Positions 19,739 through 63,743 of a stretch of DNA of 64,000 nt are shown piece after piece. A program made the position numbers and the translations under genes. The first letter of the stretch is position 1. The number at the start of each line of letters is the position of its first letter. Origin of the DNA: a virus; IMG/VR virus record IMGVR_UViG_3300014911_000001, positions 1 through 64,000 of that record. One strand, given 5' to 3'. The notes beneath the pieces are model-generated. The model worked only from the letters and a program-made list of their open reading frames with translations, made no database searches and was not told where the DNA came from.

Positions 19739-20145
19739 TGAAAAAGGTTATTTTTATAATATTGTTAATATATATAATAGCTTTACCTGCCGATATCAAG
19801 GTTTTTATTGATGCTGCTGTCGATACCACATATGGTGTTAATGGTTATAAATGGTGGGTTTTTTATAAATTTGGTGATAGCACATATTTCGTAACAGACT
19901 GGGCACAGCCTATAAAACAATCAAAGATAAGCAATGATACCCTTATTATATTCATTCCATTCTATGTATTCTTTGAAAGTGATAGTTGCATAAGGCAGGT
20001 TGCTCTCTATCCAGTCCCCGGTACTGGTATGAGCTTGCATGTGAGGATAAGAGAGAAGACAGGGGTCGTAAAGAATTCATGTCTAAATATAGACTTTACA
20101 TATTCGTCCTACTTGCGTGGGGGTGTTTGGTATCTCAAGCCATAG
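19738..20145 (+). CDS. Small exported protein
   Basis: 135 residues; start overlaps the previous stop as TGATG. Signal peptide (KKVIFIILLIYIIALPADI), then a beta-rich chain with aromatic strands (YKWWVFYKFGDSTYFV). Only two Cys. No recognised domain. Its last 67 nt also encode the signal peptide of the next gene. Confidence 0.65.
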   Translation: MKKVIFIILLIYIIALPADIKVFIDAAVDTTYGVNGYKWWVFYKFGDSTYFVTDWAQPIKQSKISNDTLIIFIPFYVFFESDSCIRQVALYPVPGTGMSLHVRIREKTGVVKNSCLNIDFTYSSYLRGGVWYLKP

Positions 20146-21074
20146 GTCAGACGGTTATATCAGATAGTGCAGAGAATTGGTATAAATATCGTGTTTCTAG
20201 CATTTACTGTTATGAAGGCTGGGAGCCGCCGGCTTCTGTTATAAACTACATTGGTCTGTGCAGCATACCTTTTGATTCGGTCTTTGCTCATGTATATATG
20301 GTATCAACAGATTCAGGCTGTTTTCCTATATTAATATTAAAGAGGCAGCGCGTATGGTCGGGGTTTCGCTACATAGATGGCAAAGAGAACTGTAATTATA
20401 ATCTCTGTGTGAAGGGGGAGGATAGCTTATTAATTGAAGTTATCTCAAGGGTTAGTGATACTGTGTGCCTTAATGATACCTGCATGGTAACACCATTTGT
20501 ATATCATTATATTAGAACAGACACAACAGAGACGCTTATTAATATTTGTACTAATGGTTCTAATGATGTGATTATCAATGTTTATGGAGACGCTGTTTAT
20601 TATGAAGCCCGCGCCTATCCATTTTTTAATGTCTTAAGAGACCATGCTCTCTTTCCCATAACATCATCATGGATTGAGTGGGTTAGTAGGAAGTTGATGC
20701 ATAAGGATTCAATAAATATTAGTGATTTTTTAGAGATTTATTTTACATCAGAAGCTATGGGGCGTCCTGTTTTGCCAGAAGAATATAAGTATGCGTTAAT
20801 TTATACTGATAGCATAAATTATGGTTATGGGTCACCACGCTGTCCTGTCGTAGATGAATGTTATATTGACTATGGTTACCTATTTAGGTGGGGTGCAAAC
20901 AGTTATTTAAGTGGTTGGCTTACATATTTTAACCCTTATGAAACATCTGGCATAAGGGATACCACAATTAAGGAAGGAGTATATTGGTTTACCACAAGGA
21001 GAAAAACAGATGGCACAAACTCATTCCATAAGGGTTATATTCATCCTACTATTCCTTGGTCTTTCTATCATTAA
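20079..21074 (+). CDS. Exported Cys-rich beta protein
   Basis: 331 residues from the ATG at 20079 (chosen because it begins a signal peptide, LYIFVLLAWGCLVSQAIGQ; the in-frame ATG at 19986 gives no such start). LAWGC resembles a lipobox, so it might be a lipoprotein. Residues ~55-120 contain IGLCSIPFDSVFAHVYM and a later GCFP, matching the domain in the 18362 and 21423 proteins. The weak ribosome-binding site suggests coupling to the overlapping upstream gene. Confidence 0.65.
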   Translation: MSKYRLYIFVLLAWGCLVSQAIGQTVISDSAENWYKYRVSSIYCYEGWEPPASVINYIGLCSIPFDSVFAHVYMVSTDSGCFPILILKRQRVWSGFRYIDGKENCNYNLCVKGEDSLLIEVISRVSDTVCLNDTCMVTPFVYHYIRTDTTETLINICTNGSNDVIINVYGDAVYYEARAYPFFNVLRDHALFPITSSWIEWVSRKLMHKDSINISDFLEIYFTSEAMGRPVLPEEYKYALIYTDSINYGYGSPRCPVVDECYIDYGYLFRWGANSYLSGWLTYFNPYETSGIRDTTIKEGVYWFTTRRKTDGTNSFHKGYIHPTIPWSFYH

Positions 21075-21498
21075 TGCGCAGTGTGTTCAGCAGGTTAATG
21101 CTGTTTCCAGAAGCGACGGCTTCCCTGATATATTACTGTATATCAATGGTCTTTATGACCGCTCATATGCAATAAAGGTCGAATATGTCATGTGTGATTC
21201 TATTGATACCCTCGTCTATCGTGGTAATGGATCTTGTTTATTAATTGGTAGTGAGCACATACTTGTTTTTAACGATATTAACATCGCACATATAAGAGTC
21301 CCTGTTTTGCCCGGGCATGACTATGATCTATACATATCTGCATTAGGTATAACAACATCGGGAAGTGATACGACAATAAGATATCATTTTTATTATAAGA
21401 TAGAAAATGTGGAGGAATGGATATGCAAAGAATTATTAATAGATACAGTGGTTGTCGATACATTAGATACATTGCCATCCTTTTCATCATCGCATTGA
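21010..21498 (+). CDS. Small exported protein
   Basis: 162 residues, AAGGAGAAAAACAG before ATG; overlaps the previous gene by 65 nt. Signal peptide (VIFILLFLGLSIINAQ). A single fibronectin-like beta sandwich appears likely (YAIKVEYVMCDSIDTLVYRG, AHIRVPVLPGHDYDLYISAL), with a Thr/Asp-rich tail (DTVVVDTLDTLPSFSS). Not assigned further. Confidence 0.65.
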   Translation: MAQTHSIRVIFILLFLGLSIINAQCVQQVNAVSRSDGFPDILLYINGLYDRSYAIKVEYVMCDSIDTLVYRGNGSCLLIGSEHILVFNDINIAHIRVPVLPGHDYDLYISALGITTSGSDTTIRYHFYYKIENVEEWICKELLIDTVVVDTLDTLPSFSSSH

Positions 21499-23948
21499 TC
21501 AGTACTTCATTAGCTGATCCCATTGTATGTGGAACTGAGTCCAATAGTAAATATGAAGATGTTGATAGCATGGATTTGATTTACATTATTAAGGGGGATA
21601 CGAATCATGCACAGATAGGGCGATGTGAGGATTCATATTTTAAGGCTATTTATTCGAAGGCTTTTTATCTAGTGACTGATACAGGTTGTGTCCCCGTTCA
21701 GGGTGCTGGAGGCTCGCCTCTTGAGTGCGATAGTTGTAAATTTTTCTCTACATTCTGGAATATGTTCATCCATACCAATGGTGAGACATTGTATGCGGAG
21801 CAACCGCATTTCAGGGAAAGCGATGATGGAGACACATTTATCTTTTATGATGCCTATTCTCCATTATCGCCGGGGAATAGAATGCTATGGATAAATGTTG
21901 AAGACATCTCACCTGATACGATAAGGATTAGTACTGACCAGAATAATAAAATTCTTAGCATTGGTAAGTTTAAAGAATTGTTATTGTGTGATCCATTTCT
22001 TGGAGCAACTAATTTAAGAGTTGATACGATTTTGTCATGTAATGATAATCTGGTAATAAGCCCGCCGGTTCTTTTTATGGATTCTACAACACTTATAAAT
22101 GGCGATATACATTGGAACGAATTGGATTCTATCGTTCAGTATCGTATTGATGAACCTCTTGATAGCATCGGCATCAGATACTTATGGATGTCTGGTGGTG
22201 AGCAATGCACACTTGATCTGATGATCAAGAACACCCCTATATTGTTCCAGTTCCTAAACAGTTACATCAATGTTGTTGTAGGTGATAGCGAGATGACCCC
22301 TAAAGATTTTGCCGAAGATTTTTGTCCTATCGAATGTACCAGTGCTCATCATTATAATGCTTGCCTTGCAGATACCGATACATTGATAATCTTTAGAATT
22401 GACCCGGGGGCTGCTGGCACAACAGCTGTCGATCAGATTATTGTGCACTATGAAGCTGACACCCTCTTCTCGCATGATACAACCGATGATACATTAATCC
22501 TTAATGATGGTACAACGGAACATATTTATGTACCTGTACCAACAGCAGGTAATGTTGGTTATGATTTGGTTATTGGCGACACATGTGACTGGGGTAACCC
22601 TATAGGATTGCATTCAGGTGGTGGCAGCACAGATACATTGATATTTAGAGTAGGGCGCGGGCTTCGTGTCTATAACGATAGGTTAGAATTATATTTGGAT
22701 ATAGAGAACCCCGGCTTAGAATTTAATGCTACTGAGGATGAATGCACTCTCTATACATTAAGGGTAGCCAATATTGACTCAACACACATAGCAGATAGTT
22801 CCATATCATGGGTTGATCTCAGCATCGCTGTAATGGAGAGCATAAGGGCAGGTAGATTGCGTGTATTGTGGGACCCAACCAATCAGGCGTCCAGTTGTAC
22901 TGACAATTTGACTGATACGGTCTCTCATGTAAGGACAGTAAGATTAATACCTCCTATACAGGCTCAATCAATAGGCGATACAGGGATATGTATCTATTTG
23001 GATTCAGTTGCTATAGGTCAGGCATGTGGATGTAATGCTATGGAACCTCTCTATAAGGAAGGAAGAGCTATAGGATTACATGCAGATGCATCACTCTTCA
23101 CTGTTAGTGGCGGTTATCTAACATTGAAACACCCTTTCATCTCTAAGGTGTTTTTCAATTATAAATCAACATCGTGTGTTGATACAGGTGATAGTAGTCC
23201 TAAAGGGTCTAAAATGTATGATTATTTGGTTATTAATGCTAACGAACCATTAGTTGCAACTGGTATTACAGCTGATGAAACTACGAAGGTAGAATTTTCA
23301 TTAGCATACGATGAGGATCTATTCACCATTGACACAACGGCACCTGATACATGCCAGCTTACTATAAGGGATAGGAGCATAACATGGAGATATATTGATA
23401 CAAGTGTTGCTGATACCATATGTAATCGTTGTGGAGGCGGCGCTTCACTCTCTGGATGGGATACAATACAGATGTTTCCTCAGTATAGCAATTGTATTGT
23501 TCTTAACAGTACATCGTCTGATGGTGTGTTAGATGTAATGATTGATCCTGATAACGACATGAATATGCCTGTTTATAGGTGGCGATCTAACTATAATAGC
23601 TCCTTCCAGACGATTATTTTACATGTAGTACAACCATTGATTGCAACAGACTCAACATTGGATACGATTAAGATATTGTTCAGGTATAGGAGGCCGAGCG
23701 CTCATGCAGATATAAAACTTGACTATAGGCTATTGGATAGTACACGCAGTACAATAGCTAGTGGTTCTAATATTACAATTGTAGGATCTCCATCCCCTAC
23801 AGGACCACCGGTAACATATACATACAAAATAACATGTGATGATATAAACATAACAAGATACATCCAACTTGACATAAAGATGAGGAGCAAATATGGTGCG
23901 CCGATTTATCTGGGTGACATTAGTATTATTTATAAGCGCCGCTATTAA
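21423..23948 (+). CDS. Large exported Cys-rich protein
   Basis: 841 residues. The ATG at 21423 is preferred to 21417, as it leaves 7 nt after GGAGG. Signal peptide (YIAILFIIALISTSLAD). The N-terminal region has IGRCEDSYFKAIYSKAFYLVTDTGC, the domain shared with 18362 and 20079. The rest is a series of beta domains rich in DT/DS and paired Cys, with repeated SIGD/IGDT turns. No enzymatic motif seen. Likely extracellular or surface-attached. Overlaps its upstream neighbour by 76 nt and its downstream one by 56 nt. Confidence 0.72.
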   Translation: MQRIINRYSGCRYIRYIAILFIIALISTSLADPIVCGTESNSKYEDVDSMDLIYIIKGDTNHAQIGRCEDSYFKAIYSKAFYLVTDTGCVPVQGAGGSPLECDSCKFFSTFWNMFIHTNGETLYAEQPHFRESDDGDTFIFYDAYSPLSPGNRMLWINVEDISPDTIRISTDQNNKILSIGKFKELLLCDPFLGATNLRVDTILSCNDNLVISPPVLFMDSTTLINGDIHWNELDSIVQYRIDEPLDSIGIRYLWMSGGEQCTLDLMIKNTPILFQFLNSYINVVVGDSEMTPKDFAEDFCPIECTSAHHYNACLADTDTLIIFRIDPGAAGTTAVDQIIVHYEADTLFSHDTTDDTLILNDGTTEHIYVPVPTAGNVGYDLVIGDTCDWGNPIGLHSGGGSTDTLIFRVGRGLRVYNDRLELYLDIENPGLEFNATEDECTLYTLRVANIDSTHIADSSISWVDLSIAVMESIRAGRLRVLWDPTNQASSCTDNLTDTVSHVRTVRLIPPIQAQSIGDTGICIYLDSVAIGQACGCNAMEPLYKEGRAIGLHADASLFTVSGGYLTLKHPFISKVFFNYKSTSCVDTGDSSPKGSKMYDYLVINANEPLVATGITADETTKVEFSLAYDEDLFTIDTTAPDTCQLTIRDRSITWRYIDTSVADTICNRCGGGASLSGWDTIQMFPQYSNCIVLNSTSSDGVLDVMIDPDNDMNMPVYRWRSNYNSSFQTIILHVVQPLIATDSTLDTIKILFRYRRPSAHADIKLDYRLLDSTRSTIASGSNITIVGSPSPTGPPVTYTYKITCDDINITRYIQLDIKMRSKYGAPIYLGDISIIYKRRY

Positions 23949-30099: not shown

Positions 30100-30173
30100 A
30101 TCAACGCCTCCTTTTCAACTCCTTTACCACAGCGGGCAGAGGGGCACCTGTGCGGTGCAAAGAGGATTACTCA
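30100..30173 (-). other. Leader of the polymerase gene with small hairpin
   Basis: 74 nt between the deoxyribosyltransferase-like stop and the polymerase start, much richer in G/C than its surroundings. On the minus strand GCACC-GCACA-GGTGC can form a 5-bp hairpin, followed by C-rich sequence and two purine-rich sites (AAAGGAG, AAAAGGAGG). May modulate polymerase translation; no promoter or terminator seen. Confidence 0.35.
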
Positions 30174-38224: not shown

Positions 38225-38563
38225 CTATTGTCTATGTTTATTATCTTCTGCCCGTTCGTCTTTCTTGGCCTCCTCACATGCAATATGGTATGTATAACTC
38301 ACCATGTGCTCCCACAAGTCGTGCCACATATCACTAAGAAGCCGCGCTGCTATATGCCTAAGGAACATATCTGTTTCCTTATCTGTTAGCTCTCTATCAA
38401 GAAGACTATTGCTATTTAATTCATCCTTACCGATGGCAAGAAGATTAACAACATGACCGCCGCGCTTCAATATAGCACATTCATACTTATTACCATTAAC
38501 ATCTTCAAGTTCAAATTTCGTACCACTCCTCCATTTTATTTTGACAACATTCCATCCATTCAT
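38225..38563 (-). CDS. Hypothetical, tandem paralogue of next gene
   Basis: 112 residues, GAGGTAACCAAA before ATG. Shares with 38569-38886 an N-terminal M-x-x-W-x-x-VKIK-x-x-S-x-T-x-F-x-x-E, then C-x-I-(L/I)-KR-x-G and a helical C-terminus. The C-terminal part has two His and Cys (YTYHIACEE). Function unknown. Confidence 0.62.
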   Translation of the reverse strand: MNGWNVVKIKWRSGTKFELEDVNGNKYECAILKRGGHVVNLLAIGKDELNSNSLLDRELTDKETDMFLRHIAARLLSDMWHDLWEHMVSYTYHIACEEAKKDERAEDNKHRQ

Positions 38564-38568
38564 TTTGG

Positions 38569-38886
38569 TTACCTCGGTAGTTCAATATTATATTTTTCTG
38601 CAGCATCTTCAATGCCTGCCCATAACATTTCCTCTAAATTTCTATATATTGGATTTAATATGTCATCCAATATATCACCAACATATTCCAATACATAATC
38701 AGTAAAATCATCACTAATATCCATCCCTACTGTCTCTCTTACATACTCCTTATTAACAAGTGTTAAACCTATAGTCCTGCCATTACGTTTGATTATTTGA
38801 CACAGACACTCCTCACCATCGATGAATTCTATCCTGAATACCGTATCAGAAACTTTTTTTATTTTTACTATCTTCCACTCATCCAT
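38569..38886 (-). CDS. Hypothetical, tandem paralogue
   Basis: 105 residues from the ATG at 38886 (GGTGGAGGATTAAA). EWKIVKIKKVSDTVFRIEF aligns with the downstream gene; the C-terminal half is acidic and helical (FTDYVLEYVGDILDDIL). Start lies just after the stop of 38888-39055. Confidence 0.62.
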   Translation of the reverse strand: MDEWKIVKIKKVSDTVFRIEFIDGEECLCQIIKRNGRTIGLTLVNKEYVRETVGMDISDDFTDYVLEYVGDILDDILNPIYRNLEEMLWAGIEDAAEKYNIELPR

Positions 38887-38887
38887 T

Positions 38888-39055
38888 TTAATCCTCCACC
38901 TTCTCAGGTTCACCTATGGCAATATGAGCGAAGAGCCAATCAGTTGCCTGCTCTATGGCTAACATTTCGTCGGCGGCTTCAACCTCTAAATATCCCTTTA
39001 TTTCAATATCATCTATTGCATTTGTAGCTATACCCCAAGGAATCTTAAACTTCAT
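38888..39055 (-). CDS. Small acidic protein, 55 residues
   Basis: ATG at 39055 preceded by AAGGAGGTGAGTC; reads 55 residues to TAA directly before the next gene. Contains ATNAIDDIEIKGYLEVEAADEM, where the EAADE is encoded by a GC motif, and a short helix. The MKxxIPW...A-D-E-M-L-A...W layout resembles small phage proteins of one beta-alpha-beta unit. Confidence 0.6.
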   Translation of the reverse strand: MKFKIPWGIATNAIDDIEIKGYLEVEAADEMLAIEQATDWLFAHIAIGEPEKVED

Positions 39056-39323
39056 GACTCACCTCCTTAAATTTTGATTCAAGCCATTTGAGACATTTCT
39101 GAGAATGAAAATAATCCCATACATAATTAGGAATTCTATCAAATTGAGTTGTTGGTTCTAAACTTATAATCTTATGCTCTGGGTTGTACCATATAAGAAA
39201 GATTTCACGATTAAGAAGTTTCCATATGCGTTTATCAATTTTTCTATTGCTGCTTTCTAACTTATCATAAAACAATCCATTAACAAGGTAATAGTAATCA
39301 TTCCCATCTTTTACCTTCATCAT
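39045..39323 (-). CDS. Small protein, unknown
   Basis: 92 residues from the ATG at 39323 (GGAGGAGAAGTATA; the adjacent ATG at 39320 is equally possible). Basic, aromatic (NDYYYLVNGLFYDKL, WKLLNREIFLIWYN). Overlaps its neighbour by 26 nt. Unassigned. Confidence 0.55.
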   Translation of the reverse strand: MMKVKDGNDYYYLVNGLFYDKLESSNRKIDKRIWKLLNREIFLIWYNPEHKIISLEPTTQFDRIPNYVWDYFHSQKCLKWLESKFKEVSHEV

Positions 39324-39570
39324 TATACTTCTCCTCCTTTTTATCCAGCTCTTCAATACAAAAAACTGCCGCCGAACCAAGTACGAAAATAAGCGTTGCT
39401 ATATTGTGAAGCTTCTGCATGTCAACTTTATTTTTATCTTTTTTATCACGAATATAATTATCCAAGGCAACAAATAGTGCTTCCATCGGTTCAACATTAT
39501 TGCGGCAGGCTTCCTTAAATAGATCAACAGAAGGATTATCTAAATAACGCTCCCAATCTCTCCATGACAT
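39298..39570 (-). CDS. Small protein with one hydrophobic helix
   Basis: 90 residues, AGGAGGATATT before ATG. Helical; residues ~57-73 (IATLIFVLGSAAVFCIE) could be a membrane span, followed by a Lys/Glu tail. Function unknown. Confidence 0.6.
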   Translation of the reverse strand: MSWRDWERYLDNPSVDLFKEACRNNVEPMEALFVALDNYIRDKKDKNKVDMQKLHNIATLIFVLGSAAVFCIEELDKKEEKYNDEGKRWE

Positions 39571-39582
39571 AATATCCTCCTT

Positions 39583-40071
39583 TTAAACAGTTACGAATTG
39601 TGAAACCAACTCTTTTAATGATCCCTCTTCTATTATATATCCATTATAATTAGCAACTATGACATACCAATTCATAGGATCATTCTGATCATGTGATCGA
39701 TATACGAAATATAAATACTCTACATCCCCATGTAAATACGGTTCCAACTTCTCAAGTGGTATATACTTTGAACCATCACCATCAGAAATCGGTGAATCAA
39801 TATCGAAATCAAAAACAACACCCGAGAATCCATATCCTAATGTTAATCCCGATCCTTTTTCCTTCTGTCTTTTGCACCAGTAAACCCAATTTGCTGACAT
39901 GTACTCAGCATCAAATCGCATACCCCAATATTTATCCTCTCTTAGCCATTTATTGAATCGAACAAGCCGCGCCAGTATACCAGCATCTGTATCAGGATAT
40001 CCATCTGAATGCACATATGTTATATAGGCACCATAATCATCAACAAAGATCACATGACATCTCGTGGACAT
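39583..40071 (-). CDS. Conserved phage-type protein (MSTRC...HSDGYP)
   Basis: 162 residues from the ATG at 40071, 5 nt after AGGAGG. Reading upstream from there enters structured leader RNA. Begins MSTRCHVIFVDDYGAYITYVHSDGYP, a signature I associate with an unassigned phage family; residues 45-160 are alpha/beta with FDFDIDSP and DVEYLYFVYRSHD. Function unknown. Confidence 0.7.
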   Translation of the reverse strand: MSTRCHVIFVDDYGAYITYVHSDGYPDTDAGILARLVRFNKWLREDKYWGMRFDAEYMSANWVYWCKRQKEKGSGLTLGYGFSGVVFDFDIDSPISDGDGSKYIPLEKLEPYLHGDVEYLYFVYRSHDQNDPMNWYVIVANYNGYIIEEGSLKELVSQFVTV

Positions 40072-40091
40072 CATTACCTCCTTTTTCTGAT

Positions 40092-40138
40092 GGGGCAGCC
40101 CCGAAGGACTGCCCCGTTGAAAGGAGCCATCATGAGGA
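40092..40138 (-). ncRNA. Leader element copy 2: anti-SD segment plus UUCG hairpin
   Basis: On the minus strand CTCATGATGGCTCCTTTC is followed by GGGGCAGTCC-TTCG-GGGCTGCCCC, a 10-bp hairpin closed by the very stable C(UUCG)G loop. One pair is U.G in minus RNA but C.A on the plus strand, so the minus RNA is the functional one. The CUCCUUU segment can pair with the AAAGGAG of the next gene. Confidence 0.6.
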
Positions 40139-40165
40139 CGGACACTTTCACCTCCTTCGAAGCCT

Positions 40166-40220
40166 GCTGAGGTGACCCACGAAGGGCCACCCCAGCACGA
40201 GAAAGGAGCTGCCATGAGGA
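40166..40220 (-). ncRNA. Leader element copy 1: anti-SD segment plus UUCG hairpin
   Basis: CTCATGGCAGCTCCTTTC, then a 13-bp hairpin (arms GCTGGGGTGGCCC and GGGTCACCTCAGC, loop TTCGT) with two G.U pairs seen only in the minus RNA. A diverged duplicate of copy 2, sharing the 5' box and the UUCG loop but with different stem sequence. Confidence 0.6.
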
Positions 40221-40224
40221 GTGC

Positions 40225-40770
40225 TTAGAAGCCTACATCATCATCCATATCCTTCGGGAAGGGAGGCTCTTCATCAAATTCCTCTTCGTCCTCCTCACCT
40301 ACAGGAAGCTCATCCTCCTCTTCATCCTCGATATCCTCATCTGCACTCGCGCTTGTACGCCCATCATACGGTCTCTCACGGATAAGATCCCTTATCGTCT
40401 CATCGAGATACAAATAGAGTAGATAGAGTTCGTGTGAATCAAGAGGGAAGGCCAGCTTCCTTGCTTTCTTCTTCCCTGTTTTCTTGCTAATCGTCAGGAA
40501 GAAGGTATCCTTATAGAGACCGAAGGATAGTACGCTACTTCCCTTACCGCCAGCAAGAGATGCATCGTGTATGAAGCGGACCTTCTTACCTTTTCGGACG
40601 CCAAGAGCCAGCTGGGCGGCTTCCGTTAACCCAAGCTTCATCGTTAATCCGTCATCCATGTTGAAGCCGTCGCCCTCCTCATCAGCAGGATACAGAGAGA
40701 GGTAAATACTGCGGTCCTCCACTCTAGCATTGGCTCTGAGATACACAGACTTTTTGAAAAGACTCAACAT
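40225..40770 (-). CDS. Probable single-strand DNA-binding protein with acidic tail
   Basis: 181 residues, AAGGAGGTGTTATT before ATG. Residues 1-130 form a compact beta-rich domain (SIYLSLYPADEEGDGFNMDDG, VLSFGLYKDTFFLTISKK) with a helix DSHELYLLYLYLDETIRDL, reminiscent of PC4/whirly-like ssDNA binders. A ~40-residue Asp/Glu tail ends MDDDVGF, close to the DDDIPF protein-docking tip of bacterial SSB. Good candidate for the main phage SSB. Two structured leader hairpins separate it from the next gene. Confidence 0.6.
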   Translation of the reverse strand: MLSLFKKSVYLRANARVEDRSIYLSLYPADEEGDGFNMDDGLTMKLGLTEAAQLALGVRKGKKVRFIHDASLAGGKGSSVLSFGLYKDTFFLTISKKTGKKKARKLAFPLDSHELYLLYLYLDETIRDLIRERPYDGRTSASADEDIEDEEEDELPVGEEDEEEFDEEPPFPKDMDDDVGF

Positions 40771-40788
40771 AATAACACCTCCTTTAGG

Positions 40789-41199
40789 TTAATTATTATT
40801 CTTTTGATTCAAAAATGCAAGTGCTTTTTCCTCTGTTTCTGCTATTGTTCTTCCACAATATGGACATACCCATTTATTCAATCCGCCTGTGGAAGTGATA
40901 TCATATGGCCAATCATCATATGTTCCATCTGGATTAAGTTTCCAGCTTACAAAACACTTTTGGACATTCTCTAAATATCTTATTTCCTTATTGCAATGTG
41001 GGCATATTGGATAATTCTCCTCTTTGTAAGCGCGAAGTTCAATACGGCAATTGTATCCTTGCCTTTTCAATTCTGCTATGATATCTTCATATTCCCTTAG
41101 CCTTTCTATTACTTCATCTTTATCAACCTCATGAATGTTTGCCAACAATCGATTAACCATATTCATCAACTTGGTATCTGACATATCCTTAAGATTCAT
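40789..41199 (-). CDS. Zinc-ribbon protein
   Basis: 136 residues, AAGGAGGTCAAAC before ATG. N-terminal helical region, then ICPHCNKEI and WVCPYCGRTI about 45 residues apart: a C-x2-C/C-x2-C zinc ribbon. Tail LAFLNQKNNN. Possibly nucleic-acid or RNA-polymerase binding; unassigned. Confidence 0.65.
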   Translation of the reverse strand: MNLKDMSDTKLMNMVNRLLANIHEVDKDEVIERLREYEDIIAELKRQGYNCRIELRAYKEENYPICPHCNKEIRYLENVQKCFVSWKLNPDGTYDDWPYDITSTGGLNKWVCPYCGRTIAETEEKALAFLNQKNNN

Positions 41200-41211
41200 G
41201 TTTGACCTCCT

Positions 41212-41796
41212 TTATTCAATATAAATTGTAACACGAGGCCGCGGCCTCATTATCTTCTCTATAACCTTCTTCGTAAGTTCTTTACCAACAACATATTCAA
41301 AATATTTACGATCGCTAAACAGTTTACTTTCCGGTGGAATGGTACCATCAGTAAGAGCTTGATATGCATCAAGTTTAGGACTAAGATCCATACCACAACC
41401 ACCTAGTGCAAGGAAAAACCGACTGTTATACTCAAACGGTATGAGATCGCATTCTATAGCCGCATTTACATCCTCTCTATGTGGTTCATAATATACTATC
41501 CAATATGAAAGATCCTCTTTTAATTGCTCAATTGCCTGCCATTTCCTTTCATCCTCATCCTCATACTCATACTTTTCCTTATACAATTCTATAATTTCAT
41601 CAGGAAATTCCACTTTCATTATATAATCATCATCATAATCGCTTAATCGAACTTCGTCATAAAAGGACTCAAACGGCCGCGTGCGCACTCTTTCGATCAC
41701 AGCCCTTATATGTGTATTATCATTAGCCACAAGTCTATTAAACATATATGTTATAGCATCATCATGTTCGATTGTTTCTATTAGTTTCTCATTCAT
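41212..41796 (-). CDS. Hypothetical protein, 194 residues
   Basis: GGAGGTAACTA before ATG. Acidic N-terminal half (DDDYIMKVEFPDEI, EKYEYEDEDERK), C-terminal basic end RPRPRVTIYIE. Predicted alpha/beta, soluble. Stop/start overlap with the zinc protein upstream. No recognisable motif. Confidence 0.6.
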   Translation of the reverse strand: MNEKLIETIEHDDAITYMFNRLVANDNTHIRAVIERVRTRPFESFYDEVRLSDYDDDYIMKVEFPDEIIELYKEKYEYEDEDERKWQAIEQLKEDLSYWIVYYEPHREDVNAAIECDLIPFEYNSRFFLALGGCGMDLSPKLDAYQALTDGTIPPESKLFSDRKYFEYVVGKELTKKVIEKIMRPRPRVTIYIE

Positions 41797-43167: not shown

Positions 43168-43193
43168 CACCAAACCTCCTTCACAGGGAAAGA

Positions 43194-43280
43194 GGTGAGA
43201 CCCGGTTACTTGAAAGGGGGTTGTTTTATGGATTATGGACCGCGCTAGGTATGCTACGCGGAGGAAGGCCGGGCCTCACC
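43194..43280 (-). ncRNA. Structured RNA or leader with 12-bp closing stem
   Basis: On the minus strand GGTGAGGCCCGG pairs with CCGGGTCTCACC: 12 bp including one G.U that would be A.C on the other strand. Inside, CCGCG-TAG-CATAC-CTA-G-CGCGG forms a second hairpin, and a C-run and A-rich loop remain. It fills the gap between genes 43288 and 43167, about 27 nt before the latter's start, so it may be a cis-regulator or a processed small RNA. Confidence 0.55.
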
Positions 43281-43287
43281 ATACCTC

Positions 43288-49726: not shown

Positions 49727-49981
49727 TTACATGTCATCCTCCTTTTCCATATTTATTATAGCTTGTTCAACAAAAATCGCAATAATATCCTCCGGAAAGT
49801 AGTCATATGGAATTGACTCATCGTATTCTTTAGTAAGCGCGCCGCCCAATGTCAGAGCCTCCACAGTAACGCTATCAGTATTGCCATAAGGATCCTTTAC
49901 CACTAATGGAACATCGAGATAGACTTCGCCAAATTTGCACTGTCCCAAAACTGCCAACAACTGCAACCTTTGCATTGTCAT
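49727..49981 (-). CDS. Small acidic protein
   Basis: 84 residues, ATAAGGAGTTAAAA before ATG. Beta-rich (EVYLDVPLVVKDPYGN), acidic C-terminus. Copy 3 of the AGTCAATTT element lies 50-80 nt upstream. Unknown. Confidence 0.58.
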   Translation of the reverse strand: MTMQRLQLLAVLGQCKFGEVYLDVPLVVKDPYGNTDSVTVEALTLGGALTKEYDESIPYDYFPEDIIAIFVEQAIINMEKEDDM

Positions 49982-50215: not shown

Positions 50216-50307
50216 CACCACTTGCCCTTTCTCATCATATGAAATGTTACACCAACCATTATAATATATAATATTGCGATTACAAAAGCACCTGGGTCTG
50301 TATTCAT
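50215..50307 (-). CDS. 30-residue membrane micropeptide
   Basis: ATG at 50307 preceded by GGGGGAGTAGAGAA. One membrane helix (FVIAILYIIMVGVTFHMM) with a basic end RKGKW. Short, but with a ribosome-binding site and coupling to the next frame. Confidence 0.45.
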   Translation of the reverse strand: MNTDPGAFVIAILYIIMVGVTFHMMRKGKW

Positions 50308-50338
50308 TTCTCTACTCCCCCCCCCACATTAGTACTTA

Positions 50339-62894: not shown

Positions 62895-62952
62895 GTTTAC
62901 CTCCTTCCTGCTTTTTTTCCTTACTATTAAACATTATCCTGCGGGCTTCCGC

Positions 62953-62968
62953 CCCCACCGCCCGCCCC
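62953..62968 (-). repeat. G-rich 16-mer (also at 60509)
   Basis: Plus strand CCCCACCGCCCGCCCC, identical to 60509-60524 and near-identical to 60221-60236 and 59209-59223. Confidence 0.6.
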
Positions 62969-63052
62969 TCAAAGGCGGCGGCTTCTTATATCCTCCGCCG
63001 ATATGATACACAATATAAACGAGGCTAATAGTGGTAACACAGCTAGTAGCAT
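62969..63052 (-). CDS. 27-residue membrane micropeptide
   Basis: ATG at 63052 with AAAGGAGGATAATTAAG upstream. One membrane helix (LLAVLPLLASFILCIIS) and a basic tail RSRRL; the tail codons are a GC motif. Confidence 0.45.
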   Translation of the reverse strand: MLLAVLPLLASFILCIISAEDIRSRRL

Positions 63053-63108
63053 CTTAATTATCCTCCTTTGTGTAAGATTTGCGTCAGATGTGTCAGATTT
63101 GCGTCAGA

Positions 63109-63596: not shown

Positions 63597-63598
63597 TC

Positions 63599-63664
63599 CT
63601 ACTCCTCCTTGGATATGTTTATGCATAATATAGCTATCAATGCGAAGAAGGCTGTATACAACAT
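63599..63664 (-). CDS. Possible 21-residue membrane micropeptide
   Basis: ATG at 63664 after AAAGGTGGTTAGT; reads MLYTAFFALIAILCINISKEE and stops in the ribosome-binding site of the next gene, so it might couple its translation. Very short, weakly supported. Confidence 0.3.
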   Translation of the reverse strand: MLYTAFFALIAILCINISKEE

Positions 63665-63680
63665 ACTAACCACCTTTGCG

Positions 63681-63719
63681 AAAAGGGGGAGGAGGCCCCA
63701 AACATCAGGACCTCCTCCC
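63681..63719 (-). terminator. Rho-independent terminator
   Basis: Minus strand: 12-bp stem GGGAGGAGGTCC / GGGCCTCCTCCC with a 9-nt loop, then CCTTTT. It ends the transcript of the gene at 63744. The only clear terminator in the window. Confidence 0.7.
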
Positions 63720-63743
63720 TGCTCTGGCTACCCTCAGCTATTC

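Follow-up and report, generated by a model that had tools for sequence, protein, structure and literature searches.

Two hairpins behind an SSB-like phage gene as candidate intercistronic mRNA-boundary elements rather than an SSB sensor

What is the role of two similar structured units that lie on the minus strand of a large phage, flanked by the stop codon of an SSB-like gene and the start of the following gene, geneY? The window, the 64,000-nucleotide stretch that we analysed, comprises positions 1–64,000 of its own record (G000; 175,796 bases, 175.8 kb). Each unit, U1 or U2, consists of a box, CTCATG-N3-GCTCCTTTC, followed by a GC-rich hairpin and then a Shine-Dalgarno (SD) sequence; only one relative found covers this locus (G001, IMGVR_UViG_3300005098_000017, locus L003). 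The original prediction had described two units of box plus strong hairpin, and this description holds: both boxes are present exactly on the minus strand and both hairpins are confirmed. In order of transcription sense, the features are:

40225–40770, minus strand: SSB-like gene (upstream), an ORF of 181 aa with an acidic C-terminal tail, DDDVGF; the G001 homologue is 98% identical
40201–40218, minus strand: U1 box, CTCATGGCAGCTCCTTTC, exact; its AUG lies 9 nt past the SSB stop codon
40165–40197, minus strand: U1 hairpin, 14 bp with two G-U pairs and a UUCGU loop
40150–40157, minus strand: orphan Shine-Dalgarno, AAGGAGGT, a probable remnant of a lost gene, geneX; the same SD precedes the geneX ATG in G001 (L003:3626)
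40147–40148, no strand: indel junction between GGAGGTGA and AAGTGTCC (gene sense); 312 nt of G001, including geneX, are missing here
40119–40136, minus strand: U2 box, CTCATGATGGCTCCTTTC, exact; the G001 copy is identical
40092–40115, minus strand: U2 hairpin, 10 bp with a C(UUCG)G tetraloop and one G-U pair
40077–40084, minus strand: geneY Shine-Dalgarno, AAAGGAGG, complementary to CTCCTTT of the U2 box
39583–40074, minus strand: geneY (downstream), with its ATG at 40074 or 40071; 73% identical in G001

No further exact copies of the box occur in the window or the remainder of the 175,796-base record, and G001 likewise holds just two. In the window the U1 and U2 boxes match at 16 of 19 positions, a similarity that none of 400 shuffles equalled; in G001 it is marginal, at 14 of 19, with 18 of 400 shuffles reaching it. 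GeneY could be assigned to no known family. We rejected two coding interpretations of the spacer: read on the opposite strand, with GAAAGGAG-N6-ATGAGG as SD and start, it gives unconserved ORFs of 4–12 codons, while a 210-aa ORF running from the U1 AUG into geneY exists in the window only, its frame being broken in G001.

The pair had been taken for a tandemly duplicated leader, and the gene order in G001, SSB–U1–geneX–U2–geneY, contradicts this. There, each unit heads a gene of its own, and a 312-nt stretch containing geneX (103 aa, L003:3626–3937) parts U1 from U2; the BLAST blocks break accordingly, with window 38260–40147 corresponding to G001 19836–21746 and window 40148–41213 to G001 22059–23124. 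Because the window keeps the SD of U1 with no gene behind it, the orphan SD points to a deletion in the window's phage, and U1 and U2 would adjoin there because the small intervening gene was deleted; geneX has no other copy anywhere in G000. Judged by these two gene orders, U1 and U2 are each the leader of one gene: as each stands on its own before a gene in G001, the unit goes with a gene border and is not part of a tandem array. The lesson of this locus is that an apparent duplication can arise by loss of an intervening gene.

The blocks shared by the window and G001 show that small genes have often been gained or lost in this operon. Between 36–57 kb of the window and 17–40 kb of G001 there are many gene-sized insertions and deletions, and the sequences are otherwise about 84–97% identical along this stretch. 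Searches for additional relatives with the SSB, geneY, DNA polymerase, primase and tail-sheath proteins brought up one more close relative, a 55.6-kb contig without the SSB gene.

Both hairpins are among the strongest perfect hairpins in the record. Folded in gene sense they have z-scores of −4.7 (U1) and −3.2 (U2) in the window and −3.4 (U1) and −4.4 (U2) in G001; the antisense scores are −1.7 for U1, a weaker fold, and −3.6 for U2, which is no weaker. As had been proposed, the wobble pairs (two in U1, one in U2) are possible solely in one RNA: they are G-U in the gene-sense RNA and become A·C in the other strand, and the RNA is therefore most likely gene-sense. A UUCG loop had been expected in both units; it is a true C(UUCG)G tetraloop in U2 alone, U1 folding with a UUCGU loop closed by C-G. 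Neither window stem is followed by a U-tract, the sequences immediately after them being GGCTTCG and ATCAGAAAAA in gene sense, so they are not intrinsic terminators.

G001 shows no change in the inner 31 nt of the U1 hairpin or in any of the 24 nt of the U2 hairpin, against 95.0% and 88.6% identity (5% and 11% differing) in the flanking blocks; in this comparison of two closely related genomes, the chance of seeing no change in the 31 + 24 hairpin nucleotides at the flanking rates is about 0.01. TCCTCATG-N3-GCTCC is also unchanged between the genomes in both units; beyond it, the U1 box is the same in G001 for its first 14 nt, after which GTAC replaces TTTC, and U2 retains TTTC. The stems of U1 and U2 differ with pairing kept, as had been noted, but because no compensatory change separates the two genomes this observation is a comparison between paralogous units. 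The check that had been put forward, a search for copies and covariation in relatives, has a mixed outcome: copies occur in one relative, whereas covariation is not visible because the hairpins are identical in both genomes.

Our leading, if tentative, explanation is that U1 and U2 are intercistronic mRNA-boundary hairpins of a polycistronic phage mRNA, and not an SSB sensor. We infer that transcription runs through the site; each hairpin, sited after one gene's stop codon and before the next gene's SD, would then form a cistron boundary at which the GC-rich stem would shield the 3′ end of the upstream message, above all that of the SSB-like gene, from 3′–5′ decay after cleavage, while structure beside the SD might slightly lower initiation of the next gene. 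Consistent with this, strong hairpins sit between the stop codon and the SD of co-directional genes, their gene-sense z-scores range from −3.2 to −4.7 across both genomes, and many other structured RNAs are likewise found just before SDs in the minus-strand operons of both phages. The closest known mechanism is that of the cip-cel operon of Clostridium cellulolyticum, in which selective processing and stabilisation at intercistronic stem-loops determine the ratios of the transcripts (PMC4423207). Like the SRPS stem-loops of that operon, which lie right behind stop codons in a polycistronic message (PMC4423207), U1 and U2 are stable stem-loops between a stop codon and the next ribosome-binding site; they differ in being from a phage, in being known from sequence alone and in having a sequence box upstream that is common to both units. 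Against boundary hairpins, the codon usage of the SSB gene is unlike that of late structural genes (rank 151/173) and so does not indicate high expression, and a pure decay barrier gives no reason for the shared box upstream of each hairpin.

The box is accounted for better, but with weaker support, by a translational switch combining SD sequestration and reinitiation, which we consider rather unlikely. A ribosome ending at the upstream stop would restart at the box AUG, 9–12 nt downstream and lacking an SD, and by covering AUG-N3-GCUCCUUUC (15 nt) would free the downstream SD; otherwise an outer stem, CUCC:GGAG, would shut over the hairpin. For all four units of the window and G001, RNAfold does predict an outer stem of CUCC(UUU) with (AAA)GGAG that encloses the hairpin, as the proposed pairing of CUCCUUU with AAAGGAG requires; U1 and U2 share the AUG and its spacing to GCTCC, and the encoded peptide begins M-x-A-P-F/Y in four of four. 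With a ribosome modelled on the AUG, SD opening in G001 U2 costs 2.7 instead of 5.8 kcal/mol, but the effect is weak in G001 U1 (5.2 to 3.5) and absent in G000 U2 (4.0 to 4.2), and the reading frame past the fifth codon differs between the genomes.

The complementarity itself is at chance level across all leaders: those complementary to their own SD at p<0.05 number 8/140 and 7/138 in the two phages, which is the chance rate, and here the values are p=0.02 and 0.07 for geneY and p=0.50 for geneX. Nor is the anti-SD of U1 fully retained in the relative, where it reads CTCCGTAC and only CTCC (4 bp) is left; U2 keeps CTCCTTTC. An SD-sequestering switch or RNA thermometer calls for an SD far more paired than in ordinary leaders, and the accessibility of these SDs is average to low-normal (ranks 44/161, 17/161 and 73/161; unpaired probability of the geneY SD 0.38 in G000 and 0.29 in G001). 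SD sequestration may occur, yet it does not distinguish these leaders, given chance-level complementarity, ordinary SD accessibility and an easing by the modelled ribosome that is clear in one of three cases.

It is unlikely that the hairpins are a relic of composition with little function, brought in when a GC-rich spacer arrived together with the GC-rich SSB gene. The GC3 of that gene is 0.52, among the highest, the spacer has 59% GC, and both the frequent turnover of small genes in the operon and the marginal similarity of U1 and U2 in G001 would fit such an origin; against it, the fold energies beat dinucleotide shuffles and both hairpins are identical in the two genomes.

The position of the units directly behind the SSB-like gene had suggested that they respond to its product. 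This product is plausibly an SSB, in line with the original prediction: it has no Pfam or PHROG match, and a low-confidence predicted fold (pLDDT 63) finds Whirly ssDNA-binding proteins as its best PDB matches (E 1.8e-5). An acidic tail ending in F, as in DDDVGF, is typical of SSBs. Adjacency is what speaks for repression of geneY, or of the SSB message itself, by an SSB-like protein bound to the leader in the manner of T4 gp32, and we regard this as very improbable. U1 and U2 are on the 3′ side of the SSB gene, and no structured operator was found 5′ of the SSB start, which sits just 18 nt after its upstream neighbour gene and has an open SD (accessibility 0.63, rank 105/161). Stable GC hairpins are, moreover, poor SSB targets. 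The target of T4 gp32 lies ahead of the start codon of gene 32 itself and combines a pseudoknot with UUAAA repeats (PMC535899; PMC3014915). This operator resembles the present locus in being a structured RNA near the SSB gene of a large phage, but its pseudoknot precedes the SSB start by about 67 nt and comes with UUAAA repeats, in contrast to the simple hairpins downstream of the gene here (PMC535899; PMC3014915). The spacer contains none of the UUAAA/UAAA repeats that follow the pseudoknot over the ribosome-binding site in T4 (PMC535899); the predicted folds are nested hairpins, from a program that cannot show pseudoknots, and no pseudoknot was seen by eye. The original prediction is thus supported as regards a structured gene-sense RNA that forms part of the geneY leader and directly follows a plausible SSB gene; as regards the duplication, a conserved anti-SD and gp32-type control it is not supported.

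An antitermination signal like the lambda nut site is the most improbable reading, since, although the box precedes the hairpin and GCUCCUUUC is presumably a partial match to boxA, this boxA-like sequence is not retained in U1 of G001 (GCUCCGUAC), and the signal occurs twice, within the operon and not at its start.

Searches of the whole window and record against Rfam gave nothing at gathering scores. We rejected the gyrA RNA (RF01740), which has a similar succession of two GC hairpins and an A-rich SD: it scores 27.8 bits where the gathering score is 45, and its match covers both units, which are separate in G001. Among viral contigs, the matches listed for the box pattern were many, as chance predicts when a pattern is this short; the box combined with UUCG gave the complete architecture only in G001, and box plus SD only G001, two other matches folding differently. 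One contig, L095, carries a box and a UUCG hairpin but no SD, and was set aside since, taken on the opposite strand, it is a hairpin with a gene start. Intergenic regions of T4 carry stable CUUCGG hairpins, which likewise combine a GC stem with a UUCG loop between phage genes; here the canonical loop is found in U2 only, and the resemblance is a likeness without demonstrated homology.

The two hairpins at this locus have company, as the minus-strand operons of both phages contain many GC-rich structured spacers. At 30100–30173 of the window (minus strand), a 74-nt GC-rich structured spacer lies ahead of the family-B DNA polymerase gene; its length, G+C and fold energy are the same in G001, and it is a possible polymerase leader. 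Three more spacers between cistrons, also GC-rich and structured, lie at 43174–43287, 62895–63108 and 63597–63743, all on the minus strand. Separately, palindromic GC-rich words such as GAAGCCGCGGCTTC and ATGAAGCCCGC are dispersed in this 40% G+C genome (for example at window 8284, 16169, 35398, 53876, 58429 and 62217), and L128:16351–18894 (plus strand) encodes a terminase-like protein in which a weak match to a Hint domain may mark an intein.

Two further families of structured RNA, to neither of which U1 and U2 belong, occur between or ahead of genes; in G000 they lie past the window, in the same early operon as U1 and U2, most of which is outside the window.

G000 68353, 71121, 72396 and 72907 (L127:4353, 7121, 8396 and 8907), minus strand: HDV-like RNAs, between genes
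G001 50479, 53699, 55310, 55734 and 56154, minus strand: HDV-like RNAs at five places, between genes
L180 7577, plus strand: HDV-like RNA, an independent copy between genes
G000 66069, 67693 and 68163 (L127:2069, 3693 and 4163), minus strand: H-type pseudoknots, a short way before SDs
G001 48189 and 49389, and by eye 49753–49855 and 50222–50327, minus strand: H-type pseudoknots, a short way before SDs

Members of the HDV-like family run in the order P1 (7 bp), P2, P3 with CRCCUUGNCGUGGY, P1′, P4, CUAAGA and P2′, which is the nested double pseudoknot P1-P2-P3-P1′-P4-J4/2-P2′ of the HDV ribozyme. Across eight distinct sequences, P1 and P2 keep 104 of 104 standard pairs, and at 10 of 13 positions both sides have changed. 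The copy in L180, an unrelated GC-rich phage contig without a match to the SSB-like protein, is among the eight. The family has no Rfam match; a descriptor without fixed loop sequence found it alone in 1.9 Mb, and the same pattern gave chance matches only in 13 cellular contigs. Theta ribozymes and known HDV-like ribozymes have G as the first base of P1, and C is expected as the first base of J4/2 (PMC10879173). Here the first P1 position, at the cleavage site, is C in all eight sequences and is always paired with G; CUAAGA is present in all, usually with one U (or C) between it and P4, whose end is approximate. We therefore describe these as RNAs with a predicted HDV-ribozyme fold, which may or may not self-cleave. 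The pseudoknot family has the form stem-UAA-GCCYGCC-stem-GGCRGGC (loop UAAGCCYGCC), with stems that differ between members. In the same early operon, L127:9610–9672 (minus strand) gives a sub-threshold Rfam match to RAGATH-18 RNA (29.3 bits, E 0.035).

Taken alone, the U1/U2 locus is of moderate interest, its two intercistronic hairpins being elements of an ordinary type. Its greater value is as a way into covarying gene-border RNA families without an Rfam match, and the HDV-like and pseudoknot families are more interesting than U1 and U2 and deserve a study of their own. It is possible, if doubtful, that U1 and U2 represent the simplest form within a phage-wide system, comprising UUCG hairpins, H-type pseudoknots and HDV-ribozyme-like double pseudoknots, in which many early genes carry their own structured RNAs immediately ahead of the SD; these would process and insulate the cistrons of long early messages and so permit modular gene gain and loss. 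The HDV-like and pseudoknot RNAs may serve to cut phage messages into single-gene units.
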